This document shows positions 1 to 21,922 of a stretch of 24,890 nucleotides of DNA, one piece after another. Origin of the DNA: a virus. Numbering within the stretch: position 1 is the first letter of the stretch; every line of letters starts with the position of its first letter. Both the position numbers and the translations under genes were made by a program. The DNA is taken from positions 1-24,890 of IMG/VR virus record IMGVR_UViG_3300020281_000118. One strand, given 5' to 3'. The notes beneath the pieces were generated by a model. The model saw nothing but the letters and a program-made list of their open reading frames with translations, did no database searches and was not told the origin of the DNA.

Positions 1-227
1 ATGTCGGCAGGACTATCACATCGTTCTTTGAATTCCTTTTCTAAGGAATCACTGACAATAGGATAAGGCTCACTGATGACAAAGCCATGTCTGGGAAGAG
101 TAGCTCTTAATAAATTTGCAAAGTTGTTTGCTTCGTCAATGGTAGAAAAGCGTGGTACAAATGTTACCTCCTTCTTTTCTACTGTTGAGTAGACGAAGAT
201 CATGTAATCGATTACAGAATGATTCAT
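1..227 (-). CDS. Hypothetical protein, 3' end outside window
   Basis: Open frame read from an ATG at 227 to the left window edge, at least 75 residues. The start overlaps the stop of the upstream gene as TAATG, the usual coupling in this operon. The sequence starts MNHSVIDYMIFVYSTVEKK and continues as a mixed polar protein with no stop. I recognise no family. The Phe/Val-rich start followed by an alternating pattern suggests a small alpha/beta fold. Its function is unknown. Confidence 0.7.
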   Translation of the reverse strand, partial: MNHSVIDYMIFVYSTVEKKEVTFVPRFSTIDEANNFANLLRATLPRHGFVISEPYPIVSDSLEKEFKERCDSPAD

Positions 228-397
228 TAAGAAAGAGGGATTGGTCCTGACTTATAGTATTTGTTTGGTTCATTTTGTATCGCTTCGTCAGCATCACAAC
301 AATTTTTACATACACGGATTACTTCTGTCTTTCCATCAGAACGGAGTGCATTTACTGTCCAAACTAGATCTGGATATGAGTTTGAGCTTTCAATCAT
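227..397 (-). CDS. Small hypothetical protein with CxxCC motif
   Basis: A 56-residue protein starting MIESSNSYPDLVWTV. It carries a Cys cluster (C30, C33, C34 in CKNCCDADEA) that could bind a metal, but there is no second Cys pair. GAGG lies about 13 bases before the ATG, a little far for a good ribosome site. The stop overlaps the next start as TAATG. No family recognised; the acidic, Asn-rich composition matches the other small proteins of this strand. Confidence 0.7.
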   Translation of the reverse strand: MIESSNSYPDLVWTVNALRSDGKTEVIRVCKNCCDADEAIQNEPNKYYKSGPIPLS

Positions 398-550
398 TTT
401 ACTTTATTTCCTCATGCGGTAATTCATTATGGAGTACATAAATCTGTATAGATACATGACCTATGTAGTAACAAATACGCACAAAATTTATGAGTGCTCA
501 GGAATACTAACCACTCATTGGAAATTGTAAATAGTTAAGATTGTAAAGAT
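398..550 (-). promoter_or_regulatory. Spacer with hairpin and possible 17-residue leader ORF
   Basis: 153 bases between two gene blocks. It holds a 7-bp inverted repeat (ATGAGTG 490-496, CACTCAT 512-518). Read on the minus strand this is followed by TATTTGTTACTACATAGGTC and an ATG at 457 that opens a 17-residue ORF ending at 404 (MYLYRFMYSIMNYRMRK). The hairpin, then TTTGTT..AC, then ATG loosely resembles the spacers at 5247, 5713, 6180 and 7156. The small ORF may be a leader peptide or chance; I cannot tell. Confidence 0.35.
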
Positions 551-790
551 TTATTTCGAACTGATATCCATATCATCGAAAGCCCACCAGGGAGCTGAGT
601 CATAGAGAATCTTCTTAACTTTTGGAAGCTTCTCAATCAACCTGGCAACCTGTCTGGGCTCGACTGATCTAGTCTTGGAGGTGAGTAGTTTATCAAAGCT
701 GAGGATGATAACTACAAGAGAAAGAATGTCATACAGTGCATAAATAGTTTTCTTGGTCTGCTGGTAACGCTTCCCATACTTTTTTGGCAT
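551..790 (-). CDS. Small putative membrane protein
   Basis: A 79-residue protein with a very basic start (MPKKYGKRYQQTKK), then a hydrophobic stretch at about residues 16-32 (IYALYDILSLVVIILSF) long enough for one membrane span, then a mixed C-terminal half with several Lys. GAGGT lies 7 bases before the ATG, so the start is well supported. The basic N-terminus suggests that end stays in the cytoplasm. Family not recognised. Confidence 0.7.
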   Translation of the reverse strand: MPKKYGKRYQQTKKTIYALYDILSLVVIILSFDKLLTSKTRSVEPRQVARLIEKLPKVKKILYDSAPWWAFDDMDISSK

Positions 791-808
791 TCGAATACCT
801 CATAATAA

Positions 809-1003
809 TTAATAACTTGCCTCCTCTTGTTTCCTAGAATTTAGATAGCACAAGGCTCTCCATTTTAGCTCGTCAGATTCGGTATTGTGTTGCGGATGTG
901 TGCAGCAGTACTCTGCTATTTCAAGTATTAAATTCTGAGACCACGAAGGATAAATGAAACTGAGTTTGTCATAGTAATCATTGAAAAGATCAGTGTCTGT
1001 CAT
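809..1003 (-). CDS. Hypothetical small acidic protein
   Basis: A 64-residue soluble protein beginning MTDTDLFNDYYDKL, with adjacent Cys residues in the middle (EYCCTH) and a basic C-terminal third. There is no clear Shine-Dalgarno sequence; it lies 29 bases after the preceding gene and 18 bases before the next. No family recognised. Its place in an unbroken run of same-strand genes is the main support. Confidence 0.65.
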   Translation of the reverse strand: MTDTDLFNDYYDKLSFIYPSWSQNLILEIAEYCCTHPQHNTESDELKWRALCYLNSRKQEEASY

Positions 1004-1032
1004 TTATTCTTTTGTATTGTCTCTATCCTAAC

Positions 1033-1293
1033 TTACTTTTTACTGGCAGGTAGTTTTACTGGAGGCATTTGTATAGTGATCTCAGATGATATAGCATCTG
1101 GGTCCATGAGTGGACGCATCCAGTTCTTAAATTTTTCTAGATGATATTGAGCTAATGCTTTTAACTCATCTTCTTCCAGGAGTTCTGCACAACCTCTAGC
1201 TGTGAGTTCGTCAACAGATGCTTGTAGCATATCTTCATCATTTACTTCATATTTATGAATGTTGACATGTCTGTAGTGGGTTTCGAGGTTCAT
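1033..1293 (-). CDS. Hypothetical protein
   Basis: An 86-residue, acidic, mainly helical-looking protein (ARGCAELLEEDELKALAQYH in the middle). The ATG overlaps the upstream stop as ATGA, so translation is probably coupled. No motif of known function. The tail ends in two Lys. Confidence 0.7.
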   Translation of the reverse strand: MNLETHYRHVNIHKYEVNDEDMLQASVDELTARGCAELLEEDELKALAQYHLEKFKNWMRPLMDPDAISSEITIQMPPVKLPASKK

Positions 1294-1565
1294 GGTAGTA
1301 AGTCCTTTGGTAATAGATTTCTTGTTTTGAAATACTTCAGTAACATCAGTGCTTGCATACTTCTGACCTCGTCTTTAGAGTTAGAGTCTTTGATTAACTT
1401 GGCCAGGAAGTAAGGGTCCTGAAGACTTGGCTCTAAAAACTTTCTGTGTATCTTATCGAGTAACAAGAAGTAAAGAGCTTCTGCATTTTTGTGGTCACCT
1501 CTTTTTGTACAGGCAGTACTTTCGTCTGCTATAGCTTCAAGAAGTTCTTTAGTGAGTTCAGTCAT
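1290..1565 (-). CDS. Hypothetical helical protein
   Basis: A 91-residue protein predicted by eye to be almost all helical. The N-terminal part (ELLEAIADESTACTKRGDHK, then AEALYFLLLDKI) looks like a pair of tetratricopeptide-type helices, but one pair is too little to name a repeat. It overlaps its upstream neighbour by 8 bases and its downstream neighbour by 4. Confidence 0.7.
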   Translation of the reverse strand: MTELTKELLEAIADESTACTKRGDHKNAEALYFLLLDKIHRKFLEPSLQDPYFLAKLIKDSNSKDEVRSMQALMLLKYFKTRNLLPKDLLP

Positions 1566-1836
1566 CGTAGTTAGGAATAAAAGGTCTCATGCAAGTGTTG
1601 ACTGGATAAGTCAGATCAACCTGTAGTATGACTTCATCACAGGTCATACTCCATCCGTACCATGATTGATCTTGATACTTATGGTGACCATATTGAAGGA
1701 TTTGATTAAATAGATTAGAGAATTTCTTAGCTAGTTCTTCAGCTTTCTCTTCTGCTTGTTCAGCAGATTCAGCAACAACTGTAGTAGCATAGGGTACACG
1801 GAAGTGTGCTTCTACGTTGTATTCTTTTTTAGTCAT
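1558..1836 (-). CDS. Hypothetical alpha/beta protein
   Basis: A 92-residue protein. A beta strand (YNVEAHFRVPYATTVVAES) is followed by an amphipathic helix (AEQAEEKAEELAKKF) and a Trp/Tyr/His-rich middle (YGHHKYQDQSWYGW). The strand-then-EEA-helix start is common in very small phage proteins of unknown function. ATGA overlap with the gene upstream. Confidence 0.7.
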   Translation of the reverse strand: MTKKEYNVEAHFRVPYATTVVAESAEQAEEKAEELAKKFSNLFNQILQYGHHKYQDQSWYGWSMTCDEVILQVDLTYPVNTCMRPFIPNYDD

Positions 1837-2102
1837 ACAAATCTCCTTCCATGTGATTCACTTTTCATTTCTAACATTCTTTGATTTACCACATGAGGTG
1901 GGTCTTGATAGTCATTATTGTATGCTTCTAGTTCAGCATCACTAGGTTCATAATTAATAATTGAATCAAGAATGTCTAAGGCATCATAAATCTTATCCCA
2001 TGTTGGGACATTGTAATTAGAATCACAAGGCCACCTAGAAATTAACTTATCTTCTTTTTCAACAAAAGAATTAAGTTGTTCATAGATTTCTTCAAGCTTC
2101 AT
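1833..2102 (-). CDS. Hypothetical acidic protein
   Basis: An 89-residue protein with a helical, charged N-terminus (MKLEEIYEQLNSFVEKEDK) and a second helix around residue 40 (YDALDILDSII). It is coupled to its neighbours by 4-base overlaps on both sides. No family recognised and no membrane segment. Confidence 0.7.
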   Translation of the reverse strand: MKLEEIYEQLNSFVEKEDKLISRWPCDSNYNVPTWDKIYDALDILDSIINYEPSDAELEAYNNDYQDPPHVVNQRMLEMKSESHGRRFV

Positions 2103-2470
2103 TTTGTAATCTCCATGTAAGGTTCTCCTCCTGTGTCATCATAAAGATGTTGTGGTGTGGGATCAATTTCATAAGGTCCAGAGTTACCTAACTCACCCCA
2201 CTTATCTTCGATTAGATTCTCACCACATTCTTCCCACCAATCATCAATGTAATCACTATCTAAGTGGATACAGGTGGGATCAAACAGGTGGGGATTTTGA
2301 GTCATGTAATCGTGATACCACTCTGCAAAGTGTTCATGAAACTCAGAGTGAACATTGTAGTGTTTAGCAATTTCTATTGCATGTTCAAAAGTTGCATACT
2401 CAAAATTTCTATCTAGATGTATTTGGTCTTTCTCAGCCATGACTTGATCTGGTAGTGGATTGTCAATCAT
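2099..2470 (-). CDS. Hypothetical highly acidic protein
   Basis: A 123-residue protein rich in Asp, Glu, His and aromatic residues, for example HFAEWYHDYM and DYIDDWWEECGENLIEDKWGE. Such acidity is seen in phage proteins that mimic DNA or bind host enzymes, but nothing here shows that directly. A second in-frame ATG lies at residue 11. It overlaps the next gene by 4 bases and the previous one by 8. Confidence 0.7.
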   Translation of the reverse strand: MIDNPLPDQVMAEKDQIHLDRNFEYATFEHAIEIAKHYNVHSEFHEHFAEWYHDYMTQNPHLFDPTCIHLDSDYIDDWWEECGENLIEDKWGELGNSGPYEIDPTPQHLYDDTGGEPYMEITK

Positions 2471-2633
2471 TTTTAGTTACCTTTTCTACAGTTAACTTGG
2501 TGTACCTTGTTAAGGTTTCTTTAATGACATTAAACAGAACGTCATCATTATTACAGTCAGCTGGTACAGACCATTCTTTTCTGACTTGTTTGTCGATACT
2601 TTTAAGTAGTTCGAAATTGTCGGGCTTGGTCAT
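2463..2633 (-). CDS. Hypothetical small protein
   Basis: A 56-residue protein starting MTKPDNFELLKSIDKQVRKE. The start overlaps the upstream stop as ATGA and its end overlaps the next gene by 8 bases, filling what would otherwise be a 160-base hole in the operon. The composition is balanced and protein-like. Family unknown. Confidence 0.7.
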   Translation of the reverse strand: MTKPDNFELLKSIDKQVRKEWSVPADCNNDDVLFNVIKETLTRYTKLTVEKVTKND

Positions 2634-2923
2634 TTGATCCTCTTGAGGTGTGGGTGAAATGAAGTCTTGAACTTTATTGATTTTCTAACCTCATCTTCTA
2701 TTAAGTTGAGAGTTTCTGGATCAATATCAAAGAAAGCACGGATGTTCTCCGGCTCACCTTGTTCATTTAATCTGTTACTTTGAGTACAGATCATGTCATA
2801 GATTGCCATGACATCATCAAAGTCTTTCTCTTTCGTTTCTAAGTAACGCTTAAAAGTATCTAAATCAATGTCAAAGTTAATAGTGACTCTGACATTCTTT
2901 AGTGTTACTTCTTCGAAAGTCAT
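2630..2923 (-). CDS. Hypothetical protein
   Basis: A 97-residue protein with a beta-strand start (VTLKNVRVTINFDIDLD) followed by helical, acidic segments and a basic C-terminus (FHPHLKRIK). ATGA overlaps on both sides. No recognised motif. Confidence 0.7.
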   Translation of the reverse strand: MTFEEVTLKNVRVTINFDIDLDTFKRYLETKEKDFDDVMAIYDMICTQSNRLNEQGEPENIRAFFDIDPETLNLIEDEVRKSIKFKTSFHPHLKRIK

Positions 2924-3159
2924 GAGTCAAATATATTGAACTGACCTTTACGAGCATTCACTCTGGTCTGTTTACCATTTGACCATAGGTTGGCATAGGT
3001 TTTAACACCTTGGGTTATGAACGTAGCAATGAATGCACCAGCTAAACCTGAACCATAAAACTGTGTATTATCAGGTGAACCTAGTGGTGGTATGTTGCCA
3101 GTCTTGTTGGAGAGGCTAGGGTCATAGCGTTCAACATCGAAGTCATCAAAATCATTCAT
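2920..3159 (-). CDS. Small protein with one hydrophobic segment
   Basis: The chosen start is the ATG at 3159 (79 residues, MNDFDDFDVERYDP). The frame stays open further upstream, but that extension runs through a strong hairpin and reads like translated spacer. An acidic N-terminus is followed by a short Gly/Ala-rich hydrophobic segment (GSGLAGAFIATFITQG, about residues 36-51) and a basic tail. It may be membrane-associated. It is the first gene after the structured spacer at 3160. Confidence 0.65.
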   Translation of the reverse strand: MNDFDDFDVERYDPSLSNKTGNIPPLGSPDNTQFYGSGLAGAFIATFITQGVKTYANLWSNGKQTRVNARKGQFNIFDS

Positions 3160-3258
3160 GATAATAAATGTGATAGGACATACAGCTGGAAAAAGCTGCA
3201 GAGAAACTACTGGTCGGTGTAGTCTCTGTGCAGCCCTTAACAACTATGATAGATAATT
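3160..3258 (-). promoter_or_regulatory. Structured intercistronic leader (element G)
   Basis: A 99-base spacer. It holds a long bulged stem: GCTGCA/TGCAGC, GAGA/TCTC and CTAC/GTAG (3195-3210 with 3219-3234), 14 base pairs with two 2-base internal bulges and an 8-base loop. A smaller hairpin, CAGCT/AGCTG (3183-3187, 3194-3198), overlaps it and competes with it. On the minus strand the sequence after it, TGTCCTATCACATTTATTATC-ATG, resembles the leader at 4550. It probably acts at the RNA level (processing, stability or start of a new transcript). Confidence 0.55.
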
Positions 3259-3384
3259 TTAATTATTATTTCTACCTTCTATTTCCTTTCTTAATCTTTT
3301 GACAGACTCCGCATCACGACTAGCTTGTTGCTTAGATTTGATGTCGAGTTCTATCTTTTGCAGGATGGTTTTAATGTGTTCCAT
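3259..3384 (-). CDS. Small basic helical protein
   Basis: A 41-residue protein starting MEHIKTILQKIELDIKSKQQ, entirely helical and rich in Lys, Arg and Glu, so a short coiled coil is likely. The ATG at 3384 lies inside the last codons of the upstream gene (14-base overlap). An ATG further upstream in the frame would overlap that gene by more than 100 bases and is less likely. Confidence 0.6.
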   Translation of the reverse strand: MEHIKTILQKIELDIKSKQQASRDAESVKRLRKEIEGRNNN

Positions 3385-3859
3385 AATTAATAAGACCTGG
3401 TTCTTTGTAAATGTGTCCACTGGCTGTGTCAAATGACTCAATGTTTTCTCCACTTGGATAGTAGATCCAGAGAGCAAGTTGTTCTTTGCCATGAATATCA
3501 GGATGATCTGATGTCTTTACTACACAGCCGACAGTGAGCATAGTTTCATGGTGTGCATACAGTATGACAGGATACACTTCTCCTAGCTTCATGTTGTCAC
3601 AGTCAAAGGTTCCTTTCTCTATGTCACAGATGTCATAGTAGCCATTCTGAAAGTCACCTTGTGGATGAATGTAAGTCTTGAAAGCTATACGCTCCAGGTC
3701 TCTCTTTTCATGCATGAGTTTAGACCACGGAGCTGCAGGATTATTAGTAGGATCATTCTGGTATGGTGTTGCATACGCATGAACGATAGGATTTTTCTCC
3801 AAGTAATGATCATGAAGATTTTTGAAATGATCAATAGATGTAGGTCCCCACATGGTCAT
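3371..3859 (-). CDS. Hypothetical protein, largest of the minus-strand operon
   Basis: A 162-residue soluble protein, rich in His, Tyr and Asp. A perfect AGGAGG (3867-3872) stands 7 bases before the ATG at 3859; a second ATG follows two codons later (ATGACCATG). The middle has beta-rich stretches (GEVYPVILYAHHETMLTVG) and a Trp-containing strand (LALWIYYPSGE), as in a small barrel or OB-like fold, but I cannot name a family. Confidence 0.75.
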   Translation of the reverse strand: MTMWGPTSIDHFKNLHDHYLEKNPIVHAYATPYQNDPTNNPAAPWSKLMHEKRDLERIAFKTYIHPQGDFQNGYYDICDIEKGTFDCDNMKLGEVYPVILYAHHETMLTVGCVVKTSDHPDIHGKEQLALWIYYPSGENIESFDTASGHIYKEPGLINYGTH

Positions 3860-3861
3860 GA

Positions 3862-4173
3862 TTAATCCTCCTTATATTTTTGATAAGTTTTATCAAGTCT
3901 CTCTAATGTTTTAGAGACTCTATCATTATTGTTTGGAACAAAGGGAGACTCTTCCAGAGTACAATCATCCCAAGGTTCCATACAGAGTACACCAGAGTTG
4001 TATCGTGCATGTGCAGCTCGATAGCAGTCGATCTCATCGTAGTCTGGTGATTTGTAAAAGAGCCAGTCACCTCTGACTCTGATCTCTTTTGGATCAACAA
4101 AAAGACCTGTTCTTTCTCCGAAGCACAAGGCTATGTCTTTCTTTGTATGGTGAGAGGAATAAGTCTTAGACAT
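3862..4173 (-). CDS. Hypothetical protein with Cys residues
   Basis: A 103-residue protein with four scattered Cys residues, none in a clear metal-binding arrangement, and a basic helical C-terminus (RVSKTLERLDKTYQKYKED). It overlaps the gene upstream by 8 bases and ends 2 bases before the next ATG, so the Shine-Dalgarno sequence of the next gene lies within this gene's last codons. No family recognised. Confidence 0.7.
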   Translation of the reverse strand: MSKTYSSHHTKKDIALCFGERTGLFVDPKEIRVRGDWLFYKSPDYDEIDCYRAAHARYNSGVLCMEPWDDCTLEESPFVPNNNDRVSKTLERLDKTYQKYKED

Positions 4174-4549
4174 TTGATAGTTCTCCTACGATAGTTTGTA
4201 GTTCTGCTTTAGATTTATCATTCCAGTGGACATCAAGATTTCTGTAGTGATTGTAGACACGTTCTTGCATGTCTGGTGTCAAGCTGTGGAAGTATTTGTA
4301 AGCTGACCAGGCTTTTCTGGTCCACTTACCAGTAGTGTATTCACACTCTTTTGCATAGCCATGTTCATCTGTTTCACCACTCATCACACTGACGTTGAAG
4401 TTGCTGTTGAACATGTGATGCTTGTAATGTTTGTGGGCTTTGTTGACTGCAGAGTTTATATCTCTCGCAAGGATCTTGGTATAGCCACTCATCTTTTCAT
4501 GAGTGCTGTTGAGGGAATGTTTCCAAGCCCAAAAGGTTTTCATGGTCAT
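4166..4549 (-). CDS. Hypothetical basic, aromatic-rich protein
   Basis: 127 residues if started at the ATG at 4549 (MTMKTFWAWKHSL). The open frame continues 13 codons upstream, but those codons lie in the conserved leader, so I prefer the later start. It is rich in Lys, His, Trp and Tyr (AHKHYKHHMF; GKWTRKAWSAYKYFHS), which would suit nucleic-acid binding, though no fold is recognisable. Confidence 0.65.
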   Translation of the reverse strand: MTMKTFWAWKHSLNSTHEKMSGYTKILARDINSAVNKAHKHYKHHMFNSNFNVSVMSGETDEHGYAKECEYTTGKWTRKAWSAYKYFHSLTPDMQERVYNHYRNLDVHWNDKSKAELQTIVGELSNV

Positions 4550-4609
4550 GATAATAGTGAGAGTAAAGGACAAAGTTGGACTACACAACGAACTTAACTA
4601 CCAAAGTTC
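4550..4609 (-). promoter_or_regulatory. Intercistronic leader with hairpin (element F)
   Basis: On the minus strand a hairpin with a 6-bp stem, GAACTT/AAGTTC (4590-4595 with 4604-4609) and an 8-base loop, is followed by CTTTGTCCTTTACTC, then CACTATTATC-ATG. TTTGTCCTTTAC is the same motif found at the same place before the genes starting at 5246, 5712 and 7155. There is no Shine-Dalgarno sequence before the ATG. Confidence 0.55.
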
Positions 4610-4715
4610 ATGTCATTGCATAGTCCAAGTCTCCCATTAAAGATTTGCACTTCAAAGATTGTTGTATGAGGTCAACAATCTCCACTAGAGATGGGAGTAG
4701 GTCTGGGACTAACAT
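4608..4715 (-). CDS. Possible 35-residue protein
   Basis: An ORF starting MLVPDLLPSLVEIVDLIQQS and ending at 4608. It is amphipathic and protein-like and fills most of the space between its neighbours. It has no ribosome site. The same DNA can fold into a cloverleaf-like structure (4631-4697), so this stretch may code, act as RNA, or both. Confidence 0.35.
   Translation of the reverse strand: MLVPDLLPSLVEIVDLIQQSLKCKSLMGDLDYAMT
4631..4697 (-). other. tRNA-like cloverleaf fold
   Basis: A 67-base segment closed by a perfect 7-bp stem (CTCCCAT / ATGGGAG). In minus-strand order it holds a 3-bp arm with a 5-base loop, a 7-bp arm (ATTGTTG/CAACAAT) with an 8-base loop containing CAT, and a 5-bp arm (TGAAG/CTTTA, one G-U pair) with the 7-base loop TGCAAAT, close to a T-loop. 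Against a working tRNA: there are no bases between the closing stem and first arm, no GG in the D loop, an 8-base anticodon loop, and no CCA. It may be a decayed tRNA or a chance fold. Confidence 0.3.
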
Positions 4716-4773
4716 AGCGAGTTTTTAGAACCTCAGCCGGATGCAGTTTTGGTACTGCTAATGCCCAGAAGAT

Positions 4774-4974
4774 TTAGTCTTTAGCTACACATCTCTTGAC
4801 AGATCCGAAAGGAGTGTCAACAGTAACGATGGTGTAGTCAGGACCATATCTACCACAGAATTTGATAGCTGTAGTAGATAGAGTATTGATAATCATAAAC
4901 ACTGGTAAGATGCCTATGAATACACCGATGCCAACTGTAAGGAAGGCACGGGTGATAGGTGAAAGGTTATTCAT
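4774..4974 (-). CDS. Small membrane protein
   Basis: A 66-residue protein. One strongly hydrophobic segment at about residues 11-34 (FLTVGIGVFIGILPVFMI and beyond) is followed by a polar tail with two Cys (C40, C62) and a beta-like stretch (DYTIVTVDTPFGSVKRC). The start overlaps the upstream stop as ATGA. After its TAA stop the same frame stays open for 33 more codons that look protein-like. Function unknown; it could be a membrane accessory or lysis-related protein. Confidence 0.7.
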   Translation of the reverse strand: MNNLSPITRAFLTVGIGVFIGILPVFMIINTLSTTAIKFCGRYGPDYTIVTVDTPFGSVKRCVAKD

Positions 4975-5246
4975 ACAGCAGCAAGATGAGATAGAGATAA
5001 ATCTATGCGGTCTTGCTCTTTATAACCTTTACGCTTTAATAATTCAACTCTGTTGTTGATGAGATCTAAAGGTGCTTCTAATTTAATAAGTTTACTTTCT
5101 GTTTTGTTGCAGATTTCTTTCCTAGCTTTGTCATAATAATAATGACAAGCAGTTAAATCAAGAAGGATAAGTTCTGCAAAATCATCATAGATGTTTAACA
5201 GAACAGCATCTTTTTCAGAGCGTTGGTAAAGTTTAGATAGCCACAT
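4971..5246 (-). CDS. Hypothetical helical protein
   Basis: 91 residues from the ATG at 5246 (MWLSKLYQRSEKDAVLL). An upstream extension would run through the paired hairpins at 5270-5304 and is rejected. Leu-rich helices (DDFAELILLDLTACHYYYD; KLIKLEAPLDLI) suggest a small helical bundle. The start is preceded by CCTAACTACC and the conserved leader, not by a Shine-Dalgarno sequence. Family unknown. Confidence 0.7.
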   Translation of the reverse strand: MWLSKLYQRSEKDAVLLNIYDDFAELILLDLTACHYYYDKARKEICNKTESKLIKLEAPLDLINNRVELLKRKGYKEQDRIDLSLSHLAAV

Positions 5247-5317
5247 GGTAGTTAGGTGGTAAAGAACAATGAGGGAGTCCCTCAGTCTGCCTCCGAAGAG
5301 ACAGAGGGAGAGAATCA
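5247..5317 (-). promoter_or_regulatory. Paired-hairpin intercistronic leader (element C)
   Basis: Minus-strand order: TGATTCTCTCCCT; hairpin 1 with stem CTGTCTC/GAGGCAG (5287-5304, one G-U pair) and the very stable TTCG tetraloop; hairpin 2 TGAGGG/CCCTCA with a 3-base loop (5270-5284); then TTGTTCTTTAC, CACCTAACTACC and ATG. The GAGGG of hairpin 2 can instead pair with CCCTC upstream of hairpin 1, so two exclusive folds exist. The same layout and leader occur at 6180 and 7156. Confidence 0.7.
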
Positions 5318-5557
5318 CAGCATCTTATCTCTTCGACAAGAGTTAGATTCGTAGAAGTTAGTCATCTCTTCAAGAAGATCTTTCACAGATGAGAAACCTC
5401 CGACTGCAGTGGAGTCTACAGTTTTCCAGTAAGAATTACCCTGAGCATCAATCATTTCTTCTTGGTACTCAAGTATGTGAGCAGGTCGTGTAGGAATGTA
5501 CATAACTCTGTCACATACGTAATTAACTGGCCAACACCAAGGTTTGATATTAGGCAT
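5315..5557 (-). CDS. Hypothetical protein
   Basis: 80 residues from the ATG at 5557 (MPNIKPWCWPVNYVCDRV), chosen because it overlaps the upstream stop as TAATG; an ATG 30 bases earlier in the same frame would run far into the upstream gene. It has four Cys, two of them in the Trp/Tyr-rich N-terminus. The middle is acidic (EYQEEMIDAQ) and the tail basic. Family unknown. Confidence 0.65.
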   Translation of the reverse strand: MPNIKPWCWPVNYVCDRVMYIPTRPAHILEYQEEMIDAQGNSYWKTVDSTAVGGFSSVKDLLEEMTNFYESNSCRRDKML

Positions 5558-5712
5558 TAGCCTCTCCATCCATAGAACATCTGCCAATAGTCATTTGGCT
5601 TAGTGTTCTCCTTGATGTAGGAGTTTACTGTCTGGTTCGGTCTAGGACCAGCAGTCTCAAGCCTGGTGTATTTGAACTGGGCTTGGGTAGATAATAGTCT
5701 TGTGTTAAGCAT
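5557..5712 (-). CDS. Small basic hypothetical protein
   Basis: A 51-residue protein beginning MLNTRLLSTQAQFKYTRLE and ending in an aromatic-rich tail (DYWQMFYGWRG). The ATG is preceded by TTTGTTCTTTACGCATTACTACC, the leader shared by several genes of this operon, which supports the start. It overlaps the next gene as TAATG. Family unknown. Confidence 0.7.
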   Translation of the reverse strand: MLNTRLLSTQAQFKYTRLETAGPRPNQTVNSYIKENTKPNDYWQMFYGWRG

Positions 5713-5801
5713 GGTAGTAATGCGTAAAGAACAAATTTGACCTGACTCTTCAGGACGGGTAGGTCATCTCCCGTCGACTCCCCGAAGGGAGTTTCGTCAA
5801 G
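5713..5801 (-). promoter_or_regulatory. Triple-hairpin intercistronic leader (element D)
   Basis: Downstream of the ssb gene, minus-strand order: ACTCCC-TTCG-GGGAGT (5777-5792), GACGGG/CCCGTC with a 10-base loop (5754-5775), CCTGA-AGAG-TCAGG (5741-5754), then AAATTTGTTCTTTACGCATTACTACC and ATG. The stems differ in sequence from those at 5247 and 6180, but the order (hairpins, TTTGTTCTTTAC, ACTACC, ATG) is the same. The first hairpin has no T-run after it, so it is not a standard terminator. Confidence 0.65.
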
Positions 5802-6179
5802 TTAGACAGCTAACTTAGTTTGTTGAGCTTTAGATTGCTCTAACTTTTCTAAGCTCTTCTTACCACGACGGATTGTGGTAGGAATTTGTGTGACTTGTAA
5901 ACGTAGAGCACTACGCTTCTCACCTTCTGCAGTCTCCCAAACTTCGTTGCGAGGCTCGTAGAAGAGTGATACCAAGTCACCTTGGCTGTACTTTTCAACA
6001 ATGCTGTCACCTATTCCATTGAAAGCTTGGAATGGGATAGCAGGGTTTTCGTCACTAGCACCTTGTACTTTAAGTTTGAAGTCAGTGATAGTGAATGGCT
6101 TGTCTTGGCTGCCAGGCTTTCTCTGAGTGATTTCAGAAACGATTGTGCCTGTAACTTGGCCGAAGTTGCAAGGTAACAT
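5802..6179 (-). CDS. ssb: Single-stranded DNA-binding protein (OB fold)
   Basis: A 125-residue protein. FGQVTGTIVSEITQR, KPFTITDFKLKVQG, AIPFQAFNGIGDSIVEKY and GDLVSLFYEPRNEVWE follow the strand order of bacterial and phage SSB proteins. It would coat single-stranded DNA during phage replication. The C-terminus is basic and Gln-rich (KSLEKLEQSKAQQTKLAV) and lacks the acidic tail ending in Pro-Phe with which cellular SSBs bind partners. AGGAG lies 7 bases before the ATG, unlike the other leader-type genes. The assignment is by pattern, not by search. Confidence 0.75.
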   Translation of the reverse strand: MLPCNFGQVTGTIVSEITQRKPGSQDKPFTITDFKLKVQGASDENPAIPFQAFNGIGDSIVEKYSQGDLVSLFYEPRNEVWETAEGEKRSALRLQVTQIPTTIRRGKKSLEKLEQSKAQQTKLAV

Positions 6180-6257
6180 GGAAATTCTCCTGTTAGTAAA
6201 TGTACAAATGAGGGTGAATCCCTCAGTCTGCCCTAGTTAGAGCAGAGGGAGAGAGTC
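6180..6257 (-). promoter_or_regulatory. Paired-hairpin intercistronic leader (element A)
   Basis: Minus-strand order: TGACTCTCTCCCT; hairpin 1 CTGCTC/GGGCAG with a 6-base loop (6228-6245); hairpin 2 TGAGGG/CCCTCA with a 5-base loop (6209-6225); then TTTGTACATTTACTAAC, an AGGAG Shine-Dalgarno and the ssb ATG. Compared with 5247, hairpin 1 has changed bases on both sides while pairing is kept, which is evidence for an RNA structure. CCCTC before hairpin 1 can compete for GAGGG. Confidence 0.7.
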
Positions 6258-6264
6258 ATAAGAA

Positions 6265-6612
6265 CTACACAGATTCTGGTGGATAGAACTTATCGTCAGG
6301 ATCATCTCGATCTTGAGCTTCCTGAACTTGTTGTTCCATCTCACCATCTTCTTGGAATTCATATTCTTCTATTTCTTCTTCAGTATTTTCTGGTCGTAAC
6401 CAGTCAGATAACTTTGTTCTGATACTGTTGAAGGTAGCCTTAGCCTTGGATTTAGTTTCAGGAGGTGCTGATTTATATAATGCAACACCTGTTACTGAAA
6501 GGGCGATAAACGTCAGAGGAGGAGTTAGTCTCATAAGAATGTCAAAGATTAGAATTTTCCAAAGCAAACCTCTGTATCGAGATCGCTTTGGAGGAGTTTT
6601 AGGAGTAATCAT
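6265..6612 (-). CDS. Membrane protein with acidic C-terminal tail
   Basis: 115 residues from the ATG at 6612; an earlier TTG in frame is less likely. A basic N-terminus (KTPPKRSRYRG) is followed by a hydrophobic region at about residues 17-48 (two short segments split by RLTPP), a Lys-rich linker and a very acidic tail (NTEEEIEEYEFQEDGEMEQ). The charge layout suggests the tail lies in the cytoplasm. It starts 2 bases after the upstream stop, with no Shine-Dalgarno sequence. Function unknown. Confidence 0.7.
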   Translation of the reverse strand: MITPKTPPKRSRYRGLLWKILIFDILMRLTPPLTFIALSVTGVALYKSAPPETKSKAKATFNSIRTKLSDWLRPENTEEEIEEYEFQEDGEMEQQVQEAQDRDDPDDKFYPPESV

Positions 6613-6614
6613 AG

Positions 6615-6995
6615 TTAGCACCAATGTAATCCAGATGATAGCTGAATAACTTGTTCAGGAGATAAATGATTAGATAACTCTTTATTGTTAGCTGAATCAA
6701 ATAACTTTAAAGCGAAGTCAGGGTCATTTGTATCACCATATTCTTCTATGTAATTTCCTTTTGGATCTCTTAATAAATTAAACTTACCCCAACCAAATAG
6801 CTTGAAGTGGTTTGCTTTACTAAGATCTCCATCACCTTCAATGTGATCATGATAGTGAGCATACCAGTCATCTGGATACTCTTCTTTATACTGGTCTTCA
6901 ATATACTGAAGACGATCAAAAGTGTCTTCTGGCACGTTGATAAGCTCTGTAAGACATGCAGTGTTATCAGTGTCAGGGTATAAACGTGTGCCCAT
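6615..6995 (-). CDS. Hypothetical acidic protein
   Basis: A 126-residue protein, rich in Asp, Tyr and Asn (YKEEYPDDWYAHYHDHIEGD). The start is certain: TAATG overlap with the upstream gene, and AGGAGG within the last codons of that gene serves as its ribosome site. The composition resembles the acidic protein at 2099-2470 (shared Trp/Tyr/His/Asp-rich style), though I see no clear sequence match. Confidence 0.75.
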   Translation of the reverse strand: MGTRLYPDTDNTACLTELINVPEDTFDRLQYIEDQYKEEYPDDWYAHYHDHIEGDGDLSKANHFKLFGWGKFNLLRDPKGNYIEEYGDTNDPDFALKLFDSANNKELSNHLSPEQVIQLSSGLHWC

Positions 6996-7105
6996 TATTT
7001 ATACCTCCTAGTCTTATTGACTGCTTGATAATCTAATGTGGCTGCAATTGCATTACCTACAACATAGAGGGCATAAAAGCCACCGAATAAAATAAATAAT
7101 TCCAT
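6995..7105 (-). CDS. 36-residue single-span membrane protein
   Basis: The sequence starts MELFILFGGFYALYVVGNAI, one membrane span covering about residues 3-23, with a basic C-terminus (NKTRRYK). The AGG AGG codons for its two Arg also form the Shine-Dalgarno sequence of the next gene. It starts 2 bases after a 15-codon hydrophobic ORF (7108-7155). Such tiny membrane proteins in phages are often holin-like or inhibitors of host membrane proteins; nothing here decides. Confidence 0.6.
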   Translation of the reverse strand: MELFILFGGFYALYVVGNAIAATLDYQAVNKTRRYK

Positions 7106-7107
7106 AG

Positions 7108-7155
7108 TCAAATAAGAATTAGGATAAGGAACATAAGAAATTGAAGTTTTAACAT
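7108..7155 (-). CDS. 15-residue hydrophobic leader ORF
   Basis: MLKLQFLMFLILILI, ending TGA two bases before the ATG of the next gene. The ATG is preceded by TTTGTTGTTTACATTAACTACC, the leader used by full-size genes, so ribosomes very likely start here. It may be a leader peptide that couples translation of the 36-residue membrane protein, or a very small membrane peptide in its own right. Confidence 0.45.
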   Translation of the reverse strand: MLKLQFLMFLILILI

Positions 7156-7224
7156 GGTAGTTAATGTAAACAACAAAGAGGGTGAAACCCTCAGAGAGCC
7201 TAAGAAGGCTCTGGGAGAGTGTCA
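7156..7224 (-). promoter_or_regulatory. Paired-hairpin intercistronic leader (element B)
   Basis: Minus-strand order: TGACACTCTCCC; hairpin 1 AGAGCC/GGCTCT with a 6-base loop (7195-7212); hairpin 2 GAGGG/CCCTC with a 5-base loop (7178-7192); then TTTGTTGTTTACATTAACTACC and ATG. Hairpin 1 has a wholly different stem sequence from the copies at 5247 and 6180 but the same place and size; hairpin 2 and the leader are nearly identical. Confidence 0.7.
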
Positions 7225-7229
7225 AACTA

Positions 7230-7526
7230 TCAGAGTAGGTTAGGTACTTCTGATATTCTTTGAGTCCAGTCTTCAGTGTTATAATCAAATACACAGACTG
7301 GATAACCTACGGGTAGGGTATAACCATTACCGTCAGTGACAACATGATATTCAAGAGATTTGAATGTGCATTGCACTTGGTAATGGTGTAAAGCCATAGC
7401 GATCCATTTAGGTAACCAACCCTGATGATAGGTAGTTACACAAATGTCTTCGCCACATATACCTGTGACAGAACCGCAAATAAGGTTAGGTTCTGGATTT
7501 GTGTGAGTAGAATGTAATTCGTACAT
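7230..7526 (-). CDS. Hypothetical protein, first clear gene of the minus-strand operon
   Basis: 98 residues from the ATG at 7526 (MYELHSTHTNPEPN), chosen because it follows the shared leader CTTTACTTTAACTACC; an ATG seven codons earlier lies inside that leader. The protein is beta-like, with six Cys (for example CGSVTGICGEDICVTTYHQ) and many aromatic residues. The Cys spacing could bind a metal. Family unknown. Confidence 0.65.
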   Translation of the reverse strand: MYELHSTHTNPEPNLICGSVTGICGEDICVTTYHQGWLPKWIAMALHHYQVQCTFKSLEYHVVTDGNGYTLPVGYPVCVFDYNTEDWTQRISEVPNLL

Positions 7527-7713
7527 GGTAGTTAAAGTAAAGTACACAGAAAAGGTTTACTAATTCTGAACATACTGAAACGTAGTCAGAAAGATTTGCA
7601 ACGCTTATAATAAATACATTGCAAACCACATTTAATTGCTTATTAATAACATCCGATGCAATTACATAAGAATTAAACTTAGTAGTAAAATTAATAATTT
7701 CTGTTCTCCACAA
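7527..7713 (-). promoter_or_regulatory. Leader region with a doubtful TTG-started ORF
   Basis: 187 very AT-rich bases. The end nearest the gene holds the shared leader (GTACTTTACTTTAACTACC-ATG). One frame is open from a TTG at 7713 through the leader and into the next gene, giving 75 residues ending at 7486, but it needs a weak start and a 41-base overlap, so I do not call it a gene. It also contains the first copy (7649-7660) of a repeat shared with 7735-7746. Confidence 0.4.
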
Positions 7714-7746
7714 CCTTTGCCGAATCTATAAGTTACATCCGACGCA
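7649..7746. repeat. Two copies of ACATCCGAYGCA
   Basis: ACATCCGATGCA at 7649-7660 and ACATCCGACGCA at 7735-7746, 86 bases apart, one mismatch, both flanked by TA or TT on the left. Their place in the divergent control region suits an operator or a protein-binding iteron. Only two copies were found by eye. Confidence 0.4.
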
Positions 7747-8056
7747 TCTTCTCGACGATACGGGCGAGGAGCCCTCTTCGATAGATATTTTGGAGGGAAA
7801 TTAGGGGAAAATACCCTAATATATGACAGAAATACATGAAATTACACACAATAATTTCACTCACTCTGTTAACTTCTAAACGAAGCAGATATATGTATAT
7901 ATTCTTTTTTTTTCCTCACAGGCACGCCTGCGTAGGTATTACACCAAGTGTCTCTTCTAATTTTTACCCCAATTTAGGGTTTATAAGGACCTTTTTGGGG
8001 GTAAATCATAGGTTGAGTCCACTTAAAATCAATATATTCAAGACTTTTAACGATAA
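7714..8056. promoter_or_regulatory. Divergent control region between the two operons
   Basis: 343 bases with no convincing gene, where all coding turns from minus to plus. It holds an inverted repeat TTAGGG/CCCTAA (7801-7806, 7814-7819), an AT stretch with tatatatgtatatatt next to a run of nine T, a near-perfect palindrome CAGGC-AC-GCCTG (7919-7930), and an 8-bp inverted repeat TTTACCCC/GGGGTAAA (7963-7970, 7998-8005). Promoters for both operons are expected here, and a replication origin is possible. I cannot pick out a single sure -35/-10 pair. Confidence 0.5.
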
Positions 8057-10534
8057 ATGGTCATATCTCCGAATGATTTTTCCCTTTGGTCAAGATTAAC
8101 AGGTAACAAGTACCCTTCCACTCCTAAAGAAAGAGCTCAAAAGGGTCCTGAAGTACAAAGATTTATCCAGAATTTAGGTAGAGAAGGGATGCTAGGGGGA
8201 AAAGAAAATAAAAAAGAAAAAGAGGATAGTAATTTAGGTAAAAAAATTGCTAAAGGAGCACTAATTGCTGGTGGAACCGCTGCCACAATAGCTGCAGCAA
8301 GAGATCCTCGTGTACAAGAGACTATAAAAAAAGCTGCATCTGCAACAAGAAACAAAATTGATGACTTTTTAGTCAATTTAGGTCGTGCTCAAGACGTTGA
8401 TGTAGATATTGTTGATGCAAGTGGTGATGTAACTCCAGATCCCTCAGTACAACAGTCAAATGTAGCTCCACAACAGGATCTTAGAGAGCCAACTGTTATT
8501 GATGCAGAACAAGTATTAAATGATGCAAGAAAAATAGTAAATAGAGAAACATCAATAGATGTAACTCCAGAAACAACACAAAAAAGTCTTCCAGAAAGTC
8601 CATCTCTTATAGAAAGAGTTGAACAAAAGAAAGCTGAATTAAAAAATAGTTTTAAACCAGCTGTGGGAGGTAAAACTTTTCAGACTAGTGGTGCTGTTGG
8701 ATCAGAAGATGTCTACGGAGATATAGGAGATGCAAAATTAAGGGCTAGACGTACATTTGGTCCCACAATTGATGCAATTAAAGAAATGAATCCTGATCAA
8801 AATGTTAGTCGCATGGGCAGACAAATGTTAAATCAGGCTCAAAAAGATAGAGATTTTGATATATCTTACATCACTGCTAGAAACAGTGGTATGAGTGATG
8901 CTGATGCAGTACAAGTAGCTCGTGAAACTGCTGGATTTAATCCAGATGCACCAGTAGGAAAACCTACCCAATATAGAAATCTTCTTGGGACATTAAAAAC
9001 AAGTTCACCTTTAAAACCAAGAGTAGATGATCTTATAAATCTTGTACAAACTGGACAAAAAGTAAAATTACCTGAAGGAGCACAAGAACCTGGTGCTTTA
9101 GTACAAATCTCAGCTAATAATGCAACTCCTGATAATAAAGCTATCAAAGTTGGAGCAGAGATTGGTGGATCAACATTAACAGATCAACAAGCTACAAAAA
9201 TGGCTGTTGATAATGTTTTAGATGAAGCAAAACAAAGAGTTACAAAATTACCAAGATCAGGACCAACTGAAGGTCAAACACAAGATGAATTTATAGAAGA
9301 TCAATTTTCAACTAATCCTGCAGATCCTAAACCAGAAATAAGTGGAACAGTAATGCCTAAGAATGGAGAATCTTATAGACCAACTATAGGACCAGTATCA
9401 GATACTATGGCAGCAAGATTAGGAGATATAAGACTAAAAAATCAACAAGATTTAATGTCTGGTAATGTGAGTCCAGAACAAGCTGCAGCACTTGGAGGAA
9501 GATTAAAGAGTGGATTAATATATAAAAATTCTCCTGAATTACTTCAAAGAGATTCTGAAATATTAACTGCAGCAATGGTTGGTGAAGGGGCATTCAAGTT
9601 TGGTCCTGAATTTACTAAGATGAAACAAAATCTACAGTTAGGAGCAGACTTCCCAGAAATATTACAAGATCCTAGTAAAGAAACAGTAAGTATAGCTGGT
9701 GAACAATTACCTAGAACAGATCTTGAAAAACCTGCTGCTTTTGGTCCAACTGCAGAAAGATTAGATGAAAGAAAATTACAACAAAAAGATTTTAGAGGAA
9801 AAGTAAGATTAGAAGCTACAAGTGATATAAGAGCTGCTGAATCTAATATGAAAGATATAGAAAAAAGAGGTAAAGCTTTAAAATCTTTAGAAGGAACTTT
9901 AACAGCAGATGGTAATACTGCTGGAGCAGAACGTGTAAAAGATGAGTTACAAAAATTACGTAATCAGTATAGATTCCAAAAACAAGAAATTGAAAGATCA
10001 GAAAAAAGAATTGAAGGAATTACAGAAAAAACAGAAGCTAATATAGCTAACTTAGCTGTTCCTAAAACTTTAAAAAATCCTTATGGAGCTGGATACAAAG
10101 TAGAGGTAGGAGCAAATAAAGAAACAGGTGAAATGGAAGCTAAAGCTATTGTTCCTGACTTTGAAAGAAAAATAGAAACTAAAAGAGAAATAGATACTGG
10201 TGGATTTGATATACCAGAAGTAGTAGAAACAGGAAAGAAAGGAGGATTCTCTCTACAACAACCTGGTGTAGGTAGAAAAGTAATTGGAACAAAAACATCT
10301 AAACAAGGAATACAATATCCTGTTCTTAGTAATGAAATAGCTACAGGAGATATGACAGCAGGATCTAAACCTACTGGCATAGCTGGTCAGATTCAAGACA
10401 TATATAGATCAGGAGATCCAACTACAATTAAACAACGTGTAAAAGAACTTACAGAAAGAATAGAAAATAGAAAGATGTTGGGACTACCTACAGATACTAG
10501 ACAATCACCTTTCTTCTATCAGAATGGTGACTAA
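8057..10534 (+). CDS. Large virion-associated protein candidate (825 residues)
   Basis: The first and largest gene of the plus-strand block. The N-terminus has a compact segment (LWSRLTGNKYPSTPKERA, then EVQRFIQNL) that I have the impression recurs in cyanophage structural proteins; this is memory, not a search. Residues about 60-80 form a Gly/Ala-rich hydrophobic stretch (KKIAKGALIAGGTAATIAAA), and about 600-670 is a long charged coiled coil (RNQYRFQKQEIERSEKRI). The rest is Gln/Asn/Lys-rich and repetitive in composition. It lies upstream of other Gly/Ala-rich genes and the terminase, so an internal or ejected virion protein is the best guess. The start ATG has no clear ribosome site. Confidence 0.6.
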   Translation: MVISPNDFSLWSRLTGNKYPSTPKERAQKGPEVQRFIQNLGREGMLGGKENKKEKEDSNLGKKIAKGALIAGGTAATIAAARDPRVQETIKKAASATRNKIDDFLVNLGRAQDVDVDIVDASGDVTPDPSVQQSNVAPQQDLREPTVIDAEQVLNDARKIVNRETSIDVTPETTQKSLPESPSLIERVEQKKAELKNSFKPAVGGKTFQTSGAVGSEDVYGDIGDAKLRARRTFGPTIDAIKEMNPDQNVSRMGRQMLNQAQKDRDFDISYITARNSGMSDADAVQVARETAGFNPDAPVGKPTQYRNLLGTLKTSSPLKPRVDDLINLVQTGQKVKLPEGAQEPGALVQISANNATPDNKAIKVGAEIGGSTLTDQQATKMAVDNVLDEAKQRVTKLPRSGPTEGQTQDEFIEDQFSTNPADPKPEISGTVMPKNGESYRPTIGPVSDTMAARLGDIRLKNQQDLMSGNVSPEQAAALGGRLKSGLIYKNSPELLQRDSEILTAAMVGEGAFKFGPEFTKMKQNLQLGADFPEILQDPSKETVSIAGEQLPRTDLEKPAAFGPTAERLDERKLQQKDFRGKVRLEATSDIRAAESNMKDIEKRGKALKSLEGTLTADGNTAGAERVKDELQKLRNQYRFQKQEIERSEKRIEGITEKTEANIANLAVPKTLKNPYGAGYKVEVGANKETGEMEAKAIVPDFERKIETKREIDTGGFDIPEVVETGKKGGFSLQQPGVGRKVIGTKTSKQGIQYPVLSNEIATGDMTAGSKPTGIAGQIQDIYRSGDPTTIKQRVKELTERIENRKMLGLPTDTRQSPFFYQNGD

Positions 10535-21395: not shown

Positions 21396-21671
21396 ATGGA
21401 AGACAATCGTAAAGAAGCTTTAAACAAAGCAACTAAAGCAAAACAGAAGATGGCTGTAGAAGCAGAGATGATGAAGCAGCTTCAACCTACAGTTCCAGAG
21501 GTAACTGCAGCAAACATTGATATGCAGCCAGGAATCAATCCTAATCCCAAGCCAGAAGGTCCTGTAATCAACGCAAACGTATTTAACCCAGGTAATCTAT
21601 ATCCAGGTATATCAGGTAATACTAAGCTCGCTGCAACATGGAATCCTATGATGGACCCAGCAGCTGGTTAG
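21396..21671 (+). CDS. Hypothetical protein, charged start and Pro/Asn-rich end
   Basis: A 91-residue protein. Residues 1-35 form a charged helix (RKEALNKATKAKQKMAVEAE); the rest is Pro/Asn/Gly-rich and probably unfolded (PGINPNPKPEGPVINANVF). Its TAG stop overlaps the TAA stop of the opposing gene by sharing TTAG, with no room for a terminator between the convergent genes. Confidence 0.6.
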   Translation: MEDNRKEALNKATKAKQKMAVEAEMMKQLQPTVPEVTAANIDMQPGINPNPKPEGPVINANVFNPGNLYPGISGNTKLAATWNPMMDPAAG

Positions 21672-21922
21672 AATTTAGGTAGAGTAGGTAAAGGATTAGA
21701 AGGACCAGTAGGAACTACATCACCTGTAGTGTCAGGAAGACTTGGTATTGATTTACCAAGTTGTTCAGTGAGTAATTTTTGAGCTTCATTTATAGCATAA
21801 CCTTTTATCTTTTCTTGATTAGTCTTATTAGTAAGAGCTAGATAACCAAATCCAATTGCACCTACAGTTGTTAGTGATAAAACAAAAGAAGCAATTGCTA
21901 ATCCATCAATAAGTTTTCGCAT
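21668..21922 (-). CDS. Single-span membrane protein, inverted in the plus-strand block
   Basis: An 84-residue protein. The basic start MRKLIDGLA is followed by a membrane span at about residues 9-30 (ASFVLSLTTVGAIGFGYLAL), a polar helix (NQEKIKGYAINEAQKLL) and a Pro-rich tail. I have the impression of similar MRK...LASFV proteins in other cyanophages, with unknown role. It is the only minus-strand gene between 8057 and 24310, so it needs its own promoter in the 45-base gap to its right. Confidence 0.7.
   Translation of the reverse strand: MRKLIDGLAIASFVLSLTTVGAIGFGYLALTNKTNQEKIKGYAINEAQKLLTEQLGKSIPSLPDTTGDVVPTGPSNPLPTLPKF

Follow-up and report, generated by a model that had tools for sequence, protein, structure and literature searches.

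A covarying intercistronic RNA element with two alternative helices in the early operon of an uncultured phage

R1 in the minus-strand operon and in related phages

The virus record IMGVR_UViG_3300020281_000118, analysed here over its 24,890 bases (hereafter the window), carries structural genes on the plus strand from position 8057 and, starting at 7526 on the minus strand, a set of small genes; this text concerns an RNA element, which we call R1, that recurs in the spacers of the minus-strand operon. The large terminase (TerL), across 91% of its length, shares 65% identity with that of Synechococcus phage S-EIV1, and this kinship suggests that the window phage, which is uncultured, is related to a cyanobacterial virus; TerL relatives are encoded by at least 598 IMG/VR stretches. 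In scans of ten proteins each, Pfam matched the terminase alone, and the only functions named by PHROGs were those of the terminase, of a virion structural protein and of a plasmid-stability protein. Labels such as ‘SSB-like’ are therefore given by eye and carry no family match; this includes the small gene at 6179-5802 (minus strand), which is SSB-like by eye only and matched neither Pfam nor PHROGs. When 3.1 kb of the region were searched against phage nucleotide sequences, there were zero matches.

An earlier note on this DNA had described one hairpin-plus-leader element in six spacers of the operon. Three of these, at 7156, 6180 and 5247, do share one element, as seen both in the sequence and with a covariance model: a first hairpin varies in sequence but stays paired and is followed by a GAGGG/CCCTC second hairpin. 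The other three spacers hold different things: a predicted type II hammerhead at 5713, a different large fold at 4550 and an intrinsic terminator at 3160. The architecture of R1 consists of a UGA, a hairpin of ~20 bp whose 2x2 internal loop is all pyrimidine, and a third strand able to pair with the hairpin’s 3′ arm instead; the window consensus on the minus strand is [U/A]GA-Y-n-CUCUC-CC-(inner stem-loop)-CU-GAGGG-n'-Y-UC-(A)-CCCUC. Copy 1 (7178..7224, minus strand) has the UGA, a CUCUC:GAGGG lower stem, a CC/CU internal loop, an AGAGCCU:AGGCUCU inner stem and the third strand CCCUC at 7182-7178 (63.6 bits; fold z -3.82). Copy 2 (6210..6258, minus strand) stands before the small gene 6179-5802 and has its third-strand CCCUC at 6214-6210 (62.9 bits; fold z -4.17). 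In copy 3 (5271..5317, minus strand) the third-strand CCCUC is at 5275-5271 and the upstream gene stops on the UGA at 5317-5315 (offset 0); its score is 50.3 bits and its fold z -2.09, with 6 of 200 shuffles as good. When the window was searched with the R1 covariance model, built from 48 copies that include these three, there were exactly three matches, in the spacers at 7156, 6180 and 5247.

To place R1 more widely, IMG/VR was scanned with the pattern CTCTCCCN{10,40}CTGAGGGN{2,6}CCCTC. This gave 57 stretches; R1 is present in 46, before unrelated genes, and the 11 others (L011, L013, L021, L034, L039, L042, L047, L048, L049, L053 and L057) are stemless and were set aside. A pattern match in a Prochlorococcus single-cell contig (L200) is also stemless and gives no host evidence. 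As a chance control, a near-identical pattern was run against bacterial and archaeal genomes; it had at least 123 matches in at least 119 stretches, and among the matches listed none had five or more inner pairs.

The GA-prefixed hits, minus three stemless ones (L039, L047 and L057, the scan pattern not having required a stem), provided an alignment of 48 distinct copies. Over 14 R1 pairs, five of which are fixed by the scan pattern itself, 99.0% of cells are paired, against 76.0% in shuffles, and there are 141 two-sided changes, against 46.6 in shuffles; covariation, which had been proposed as a check on the element, thus speaks strongly in its favour. Position n-n' is paired in 42 of the 48 copies, with five pair types, and the facing pyrimidines are U.U in 20 and C.C in 19. 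The inner six pairs comprise 266 Watson-Crick and 22 G.U pairs, with 0 A.C and 0 other. Because G.U occurs in these stems without A.C, the selected molecule is the sense-strand RNA, and R1 is almost certainly an RNA structure on that strand; the same 22 G.U to 0 A.C lead us to reject a DNA-level element such as a recombination or replication hairpin. R1 would be an RNA family not listed in Rfam 15, which had zero matches at R1 sites (whole window at the gathering threshold, 3000-8060 at E up to 10, relatives scanned as well). We found no description of R1 in the open-licence literature, and its absence elsewhere is not thereby proven.

The inner stem is narrowly sized. With a descriptor that asked for at least 6 bp, it measured 7 bp in 49 of 72 copies, 8 in 15, 6 in six, and 9 and 10 in one each, and the inner loop has 4 nt in 48 of the 72. 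This narrow size, combined with a free inner sequence, therefore points to a length ruler. The position of R1 between genes is also regular. A usable upstream open reading frame (ORF) of at least 30 codons is present for 67 of 78 copies, and in 48 of these 67 the element’s own UGA is the stop codon; an overlapping TAG is the stop in four, and the remaining 15, which include those of window copies 1 and 2, stop 4 to 44 nt upstream. A downstream start codon was called for 74 copies and lies 25-51 nt past the YUC in 70 of them.

Related phages had been expected to carry the motif in their spacers, and this holds for part of them: in a search of 47 records with the R1 model, 27 match and 20 do not. 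A TerL relative (53-100% identity) is encoded in 19 of the 46 records with R1. The most copies per record are six (G043), five (G023) and four (G011), followed by three each in the window, G032 and G052; the model had no match in G047-G050. In one related locus (L146), a tRNA-Asp (GTC) at 1277-1350 lies in the early operon, upstream of two R1 copies. Punctuation by tRNAs as a general feature is ruled out, with 14 of 19 loci scanned having no tRNA.

One strand shared by two helices

The 3′ arm of the lower stem (GAGGG, strand 2) can pair either with CUCUC (strand 1), which yields the ~20-bp hairpin, or with CCCUC (strand 3), which yields a short hairpin. The first and second hairpins of the earlier note thus both exist, but they are not independent, as they compete for the strand GAGGG. 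This was examined with a descriptor blind to strand 3, which fixes the GA, the pyrimidines at the mismatch and in the 5′ side of the loop, the CU, the YUC, and the pairing in both the lower and the inner stem. The fetched sequence, in which some loci overlap and the genome stretches are included, amounts to 2.57 Mb; the descriptor found 73 copies in it, and 0 when the sequence was reversed. Strand 2 is GAGGG in 64 of the 73, and 53 of those 64 have CCCTC starting no more than 6 nt past the end of the YTC. In the nine others strand 2 reads GCTGG (four copies), GAAGG (two), TAGGG, GCAGC or GATGT, and in eight of these nine the exact complement of the changed strand lies 1-5 nt after the YTC; without the two least R1-like copies (L041 and L159), the complement is kept in six of seven. 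Specifically, CTCTC:GAGGG:CCCTC is replaced by CCAGC:GCTGG:CCAGC or by CTTTC:GAAGG:CCTTC, with both pairings kept. Because eight of the nine changed copies carry the exact downstream complement, strand 2 is selected to pair with both strands 1 and 3. As judged from sequence, these replacements show that both predicted helices, 1:2 and 2:3, are maintained by compensatory change.

The 1:2 helix contains exactly one wobble in 69 of 72 copies. Strand 3 is a perfect Watson-Crick complement in 61 of the 72 and matches at 4 of 5 positions in eight, and shuffled tails reach 5 of 5 in 10.2%. The three misses appear to be L009:713, L147:3073 and window copy 3, the last being scored as a miss only since its CCCTC overlaps the YTC and the script searched past the YTC. 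In a further alignment of 70 copies (A4), three of the five strand 1:2 pairs have two-sided changes; pairing was a selection criterion for this alignment, so its 100% paired is uninformative. In addition, a scan that left strand 3 out and fixed GATT/ATTC found 36 distinct copies; read by eye, 33 of them are followed at once by CCCTC or something close to it, such as CCCTT, two have it ~16 nt on, and in one it is absent.

A hammerhead at a neighbouring junction and the role of R1

The spacer at 5713 holds an element (5736..5799, minus strand) that is very probably a type II hammerhead ribozyme, having the core GAAAC, an (N)UH site, CUGANGA and three stems in type II order. Stem II is formed by 5799-5796:5746-5743 and stem I by 5775-5770:5759-5754, with GAAAC at 5795-5791 and CUGAAGA at 5753-5747; within the same element, UGACC (5766-5762) and GGUCA (5742-5738) would form a pseudoknot, and cleavage is predicted after GUC, between 5776 and 5775 on the minus strand. 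In the pseudoknot-free minimum free energy fold of 5736-5799, stems III and I are present and part of the core is paired otherwise. The Rfam model RF02276 (Hammerhead_II), at E up to 0.01, matches 5 of 47 records and 0 of 14 control genomes, and an orthologous sequence, identical in three related records (G006, G036 and G040), scores 37.5 bits, above gathering. A pattern scan that fixed the core and the GGTCA arm and left TGACC free found 20 stretches, in which stems I and III vary with compensation; TGACC is kept in loop I, opposite GGTCA, in 16 of 16 distinct copies. An upstream stop codon lies within 8 nt of the CGAAAC in 11 of these 16, and a start codon follows 15-26 nt after the hammerhead in 15.

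The placement of R1 appears similar: stop codon, element, short leader, start codon. In one related locus (L155), a gene 49% identical to the window’s SSB-like gene has R1 before it and a hammerhead after it. In another (L290), a hammerhead-like core with complementary stems was seen by eye and with a core regular expression, and was not reported by RF02276 at E up to 0.01; homologs of the gene that follows it (36% over 56 aa), in L031 and L144, follow R1. Kinship between that gene and window gene 4974 was dropped (BLASTP E 1.2). At ~5380-4760 (minus strand) of L291, a hammerhead-like spacer that is continuous in L290 (3145-3220) is split by a gene that by eye resembles an HNH endonuclease, and a CGCTCCCTNCGGTCGC-like sequence is repeated in several spacers of both loci. 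Before the SSB-like gene, examined at 11 loci, R1 occurs in the window, L001, L043 and L155 (L001 and L043 being one record) and another element, E3 (TTGACCTGAATAAGTC), in L147, L157 and L095, which lie in one record; the script recognised no R1, hammerhead or E3 there in L290, L291, L161 and L041.

We favour, and give an even chance to, the reading of R1 as a cis-acting intercistronic processing site of the polycistronic early mRNA, with cleavage as a prediction. When the last ribosome leaves the stop codon, strands 1 and 2 would close into a two-turn helix; a host endonuclease for double-stranded RNA, of the RNase III or Mini-III type, would cut this helix at or near the internal loop; and the freed downstream mRNA would refold its new 5′ end as the 2:3 hairpin, protecting the product. 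This hairpin would parallel the one (stem I) that hammerhead cleavage would leave at a 5′ end, and the operon would thereby be split into independently translated blocks, as in the early mRNA of T7. RNA processing is favoured because R1 is placed like a self-cleaving RNA, with one junction in common, because its size and the presence of an internal loop are as in sites of RNase III, and because the product would obtain its 5′ hairpin from strand 3. A 5′ hairpin stabilises mRNA, and the predicted R1 downstream products start with one (whole fragments of -13.0, -13.9 and -10.3 kcal/mol), as does the hammerhead product. RNase processing as in T7 is also the best supported of the four readings that the earlier note had offered, by the ~20-bp geometry with internal loop and the hammerhead-like placement, although the cleavage part of that claim stays predicted.

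The early mRNA of T7 has several RNase III sites per operon. Like R1 with its ~20 bp, these sites (R1.1 and others) are intercistronic hairpins with an internal loop between early genes; R1 differs from them in overlapping the upstream stop codon, in its symmetric pyrimidine loop, in a third strand that could refold the 3′ product, and in that its cleavage is a prediction. T7 R1.1, which comes from between genes 1.0 and 1.1, is a 60-nt RNA that has an internal loop and is a substrate of RNase III cleavage (PMC6121014). All sequenced cyanobacteria are reported to have RNase III genes (PMC10989914). Hammerheads flank genes or gene blocks in prophages, where processing of long phage transcripts was proposed; these prophage hammerheads show cleavage in vitro, and one array cleaved in E. 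coli as well (PMC3088659). Compared with the type II hammerheads with pseudoknot (RF02276; PMC3088659), R1 is placed similarly but has neither a hammerhead core nor an Rfam match. In Cluster K mycobacteriophages, a start-associated sequence (SAS) stands before many genes, about half of them with an upstream inverted repeat (PMC3203893). The extended form (ESAS) consists of 17-bp imperfect repeats with a consensus, whereas R1 is a covarying RNA with two alternative folds; the hosts differ, and we do not claim homology (PMC3203893).

More tentatively, R1 may be a ribosome-gated processing switch, and the hammerhead, R1 and at least one further structured element may be interchangeable junction punctuation; we regard this as possible, at well under an even chance. 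With the stop codon inside R1, the helix to be cut would form only when no ribosome stands at the end of the upstream gene; once cut, the freed strand would fold with the third strand, already in place, into a protective 5′ hairpin. If true, R1 would join translation termination, RNA refolding and mRNA processing in fewer than 60 nt, would explain the division of early operons of very small genes into expression units, and would let a ribozyme be compared, in a natural setting, with a protein-dependent site that does the same job at a neighbouring junction. It would do so in part of a phage lineage common in IMG/VR, only some of the at least 598 TerL relatives having R1.

Several points weigh against R1 as a processing site. 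The R1 model has 0 matches in 15 close TerL relatives (G053-G067, 84-87%; some are fragments) and found none in S-EIV1, and because these phages lack R1 matches the function of R1 would be dispensable or met by other elements. Few copies have a changed strand 2, and some of these are related: the four with GCTGG may be kin, the two GAAGG copies are in one genome, and L041 and L159 are the least R1-like. Strand 3 is absent in L009:713 and L147:3073, and L024:9718 has no exact strand-2 complement at the usual place; the second helix (2:3) is therefore not indispensable. The R1 loop is symmetric, 2x2 and all pyrimidine, in contrast to the asymmetric 4/5 loop of T7 R1.1. RNase III needs no conserved lower-stem sequence; we attribute the conserved lower stem of R1 to the three-strand constraint, and a specific RNA-binding protein would explain it as well. 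The window hammerhead, with 35.7 bits against RF02276, is 1.3 under the gathering threshold of 37 (E 1.2e-4 and 3.3e-5). Finally, a cyanobacterial host is suggested by TerL kinship with S-EIV1 only.

A serious rival, if a rather unlikely one, is a ribosome-gated switch without cleavage. A ribosome on the UGA would cover strand 1, so that 2:3 pairs, and otherwise 1:2 would pair, which would tune transcript elongation, or else translation of the next gene or re-initiation on it, and have the genes expressed in ratio. Such a switch fits the stop codon that forms part of R1 in 48 of 67 copies and the two mutually exclusive helices, both kept by compensatory change; it also fits the position of strand 1 within ~12 nt past the stop codon, where a terminating ribosome would cover it. 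Transcription attenuators, like other bistable leaders with three strands, also place a pair of mutually exclusive helices beside a stop codon that is translated. However, most R1 copies have no U-tract, so R1 is no attenuator; neither R1 helix contains the next start codon or its ribosome site, the start lying 25-51 nt past the YUC in 70 of 74 copies; and the genes after R1 are unrelated and need no common feedback.

A stable hairpin at the stop codon could also protect or insulate an mRNA 3′ end, as REP hairpins do, by blocking 3′-5′ exonucleases after cleavage elsewhere, for example by RNase E in an A/U-rich leader. The fold scores and the U-rich leaders of the window agree with this, but it would leave strand 3 and the narrow inner-stem length unexplained, and the leaders of several other lineages are not U-rich; we consider it improbable. 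Still less probable is the tandem terminator-promoter of the earlier note, in which one transcript would end at the GAGGG/CCCTC hairpin with its T-rich leader, and a promoter within that leader would start another: of the three copies in the window, two are terminator-like (7192-7178 and 5284-5270), and terminator-like sites in window 1-9000 are above chance (10 vs 5.1), yet as a general account it fails, with only 11 of 69 copies having at least five T among the 8 nt that follow strand 3, sigma-70-like sites in window 1-9000 not enriched (20 found vs 26.8 expected), and the short hairpin in competition with the longer one, which is the predicted minimum free energy fold. The earlier note had also offered a hairpin promoter as in phage N4, which would be a single-stranded DNA hairpin used by a virion RNA polymerase; the overlap of the R1 hairpin with the upstream stop codon, and its G.U pairs in the absence of A.C, point to RNA instead. 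We give as little credence as to the terminator-promoter to R1 as a so far undescribed, small self-cleaving ribozyme in hammerhead positions, for which its narrowly sized helices, its hammerhead-like placement and a junction that some relatives fill with R1 and another with a hammerhead-like core would speak, since its conserved unpaired bases are few (the CC/CU loop and the Y.Y mismatch) and zero Rfam ribozyme matches lie at R1 sites. A binding site for a phage RNA-binding protein that coordinates the early operon is likewise very unlikely: the lower-stem sequence is conserved in most copies and the facing pyrimidines, required as such by the descriptor, are the same letter (C.C or U.U) in 61 of 73 and mixed in 12, but the lower stem changes to CCAGC or CTTTC with pairing kept, which argues against base-specific recognition.

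Leaders and other spacer elements

The gene at 7526, with which the minus-strand operon opens, has a leader but no hairpins, just as the earlier note had it: ACTACCATG lies in the leader at 7524..7548. The other leaders, all on the minus strand, are TTTGTTGTTTAC...ACTACCATG after R1 copy 1 (7153..7177), TTTGTTCTTTAC...ACTACCATG after the hammerhead (5710..5735) and ATTGTTCTTTAC...ACTACCATG after R1 copy 3 (5244..5270). In the window, ACTACCATG occurs five times, against 0.16 expected, with its first base at 7532, 7161, 5718, 5252 and 1299. With at most one mismatch, TTTGTTCTTTAC has four window sites, all in the spacers noted earlier; with at most three it has 75, against 52.8 expected, mostly outside those spacers. 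As to the proposal that ACTACC is a non-Shine-Dalgarno translation signal, the leader itself is real but separate from the hairpin. The leader of the window gene at 6179 is AACAGGAG, and the ortholog of gene 5712 in L012 has no ACTACC; L144 has CACCTAGTACGG-like leaders, including one before a gene without R1. Because relatives with the same hairpin have other leaders, such as CACCTAGTACGG in L144, the leader is separate from R1; the ACTACC leaders are real and lineage-specific. There is indeed an ORF at the gene start proposed at 7156 (7155-7108, minus strand), directly after R1 copy 1, but it has only 15 codons; it is hydrophobic, and a 15-codon ORF is conserved at the same place in L001.

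In the spacer at 3160, the intrinsic terminator (3190..3238, minus strand) has a long GC-rich stem followed by TTTTT; 3165-3262 folds at -34.6 kcal/mol, and the terminator, which is not of the R1 family, was missed by the simple terminator scan of window 1-9000. The spacer at 4550 (4550..4780, minus strand; ~230 nt) has a large predicted multi-stem fold (-66.7 kcal/mol) that is not R1. It is partly conserved in close relatives, at 97.9% over 140 nt in L001 and 90.2% over 122 nt in L012, and its CTGGGC...GTCCCAG resembles two S-EIV1 spacers (L005 minus strand, ~1480 and ~780).

On the plus strand of L147, E3 occurs at ~1030, 1190, 1870 and 2330, and three of the four copies are a stem-loop (loop TGCAA or ATCAAAT) followed by a TTGACCTGA..A.GTC..AAAAC-like sequence. 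Two S-EIV1 spacers (L005 minus strand, ~3790 and ~3500), at or near a stop codon, have TGATCCGTCAAAGCGGGT and then a hairpin with the loop TGCAAA. Their ACCC/GGGT strands could pair two ways, with only two copies to compare, and these TGATCCGTCAAAGCGGGT spacers are perhaps an analogue of R1.

An 84-aa protein encoded at 21668-21922 (minus strand), inside the plus-strand structural region of the window, matches PHROG 568 (plasmid stability). In the divergent region that precedes the early operon, TGACTACGTT recurs in the window (~7595, minus strand), in L001 (4341 and 4631) and in S-EIV1 (L005 minus strand, ~4355 and ~4320), and these repeats are a possible promoter or regulator site.

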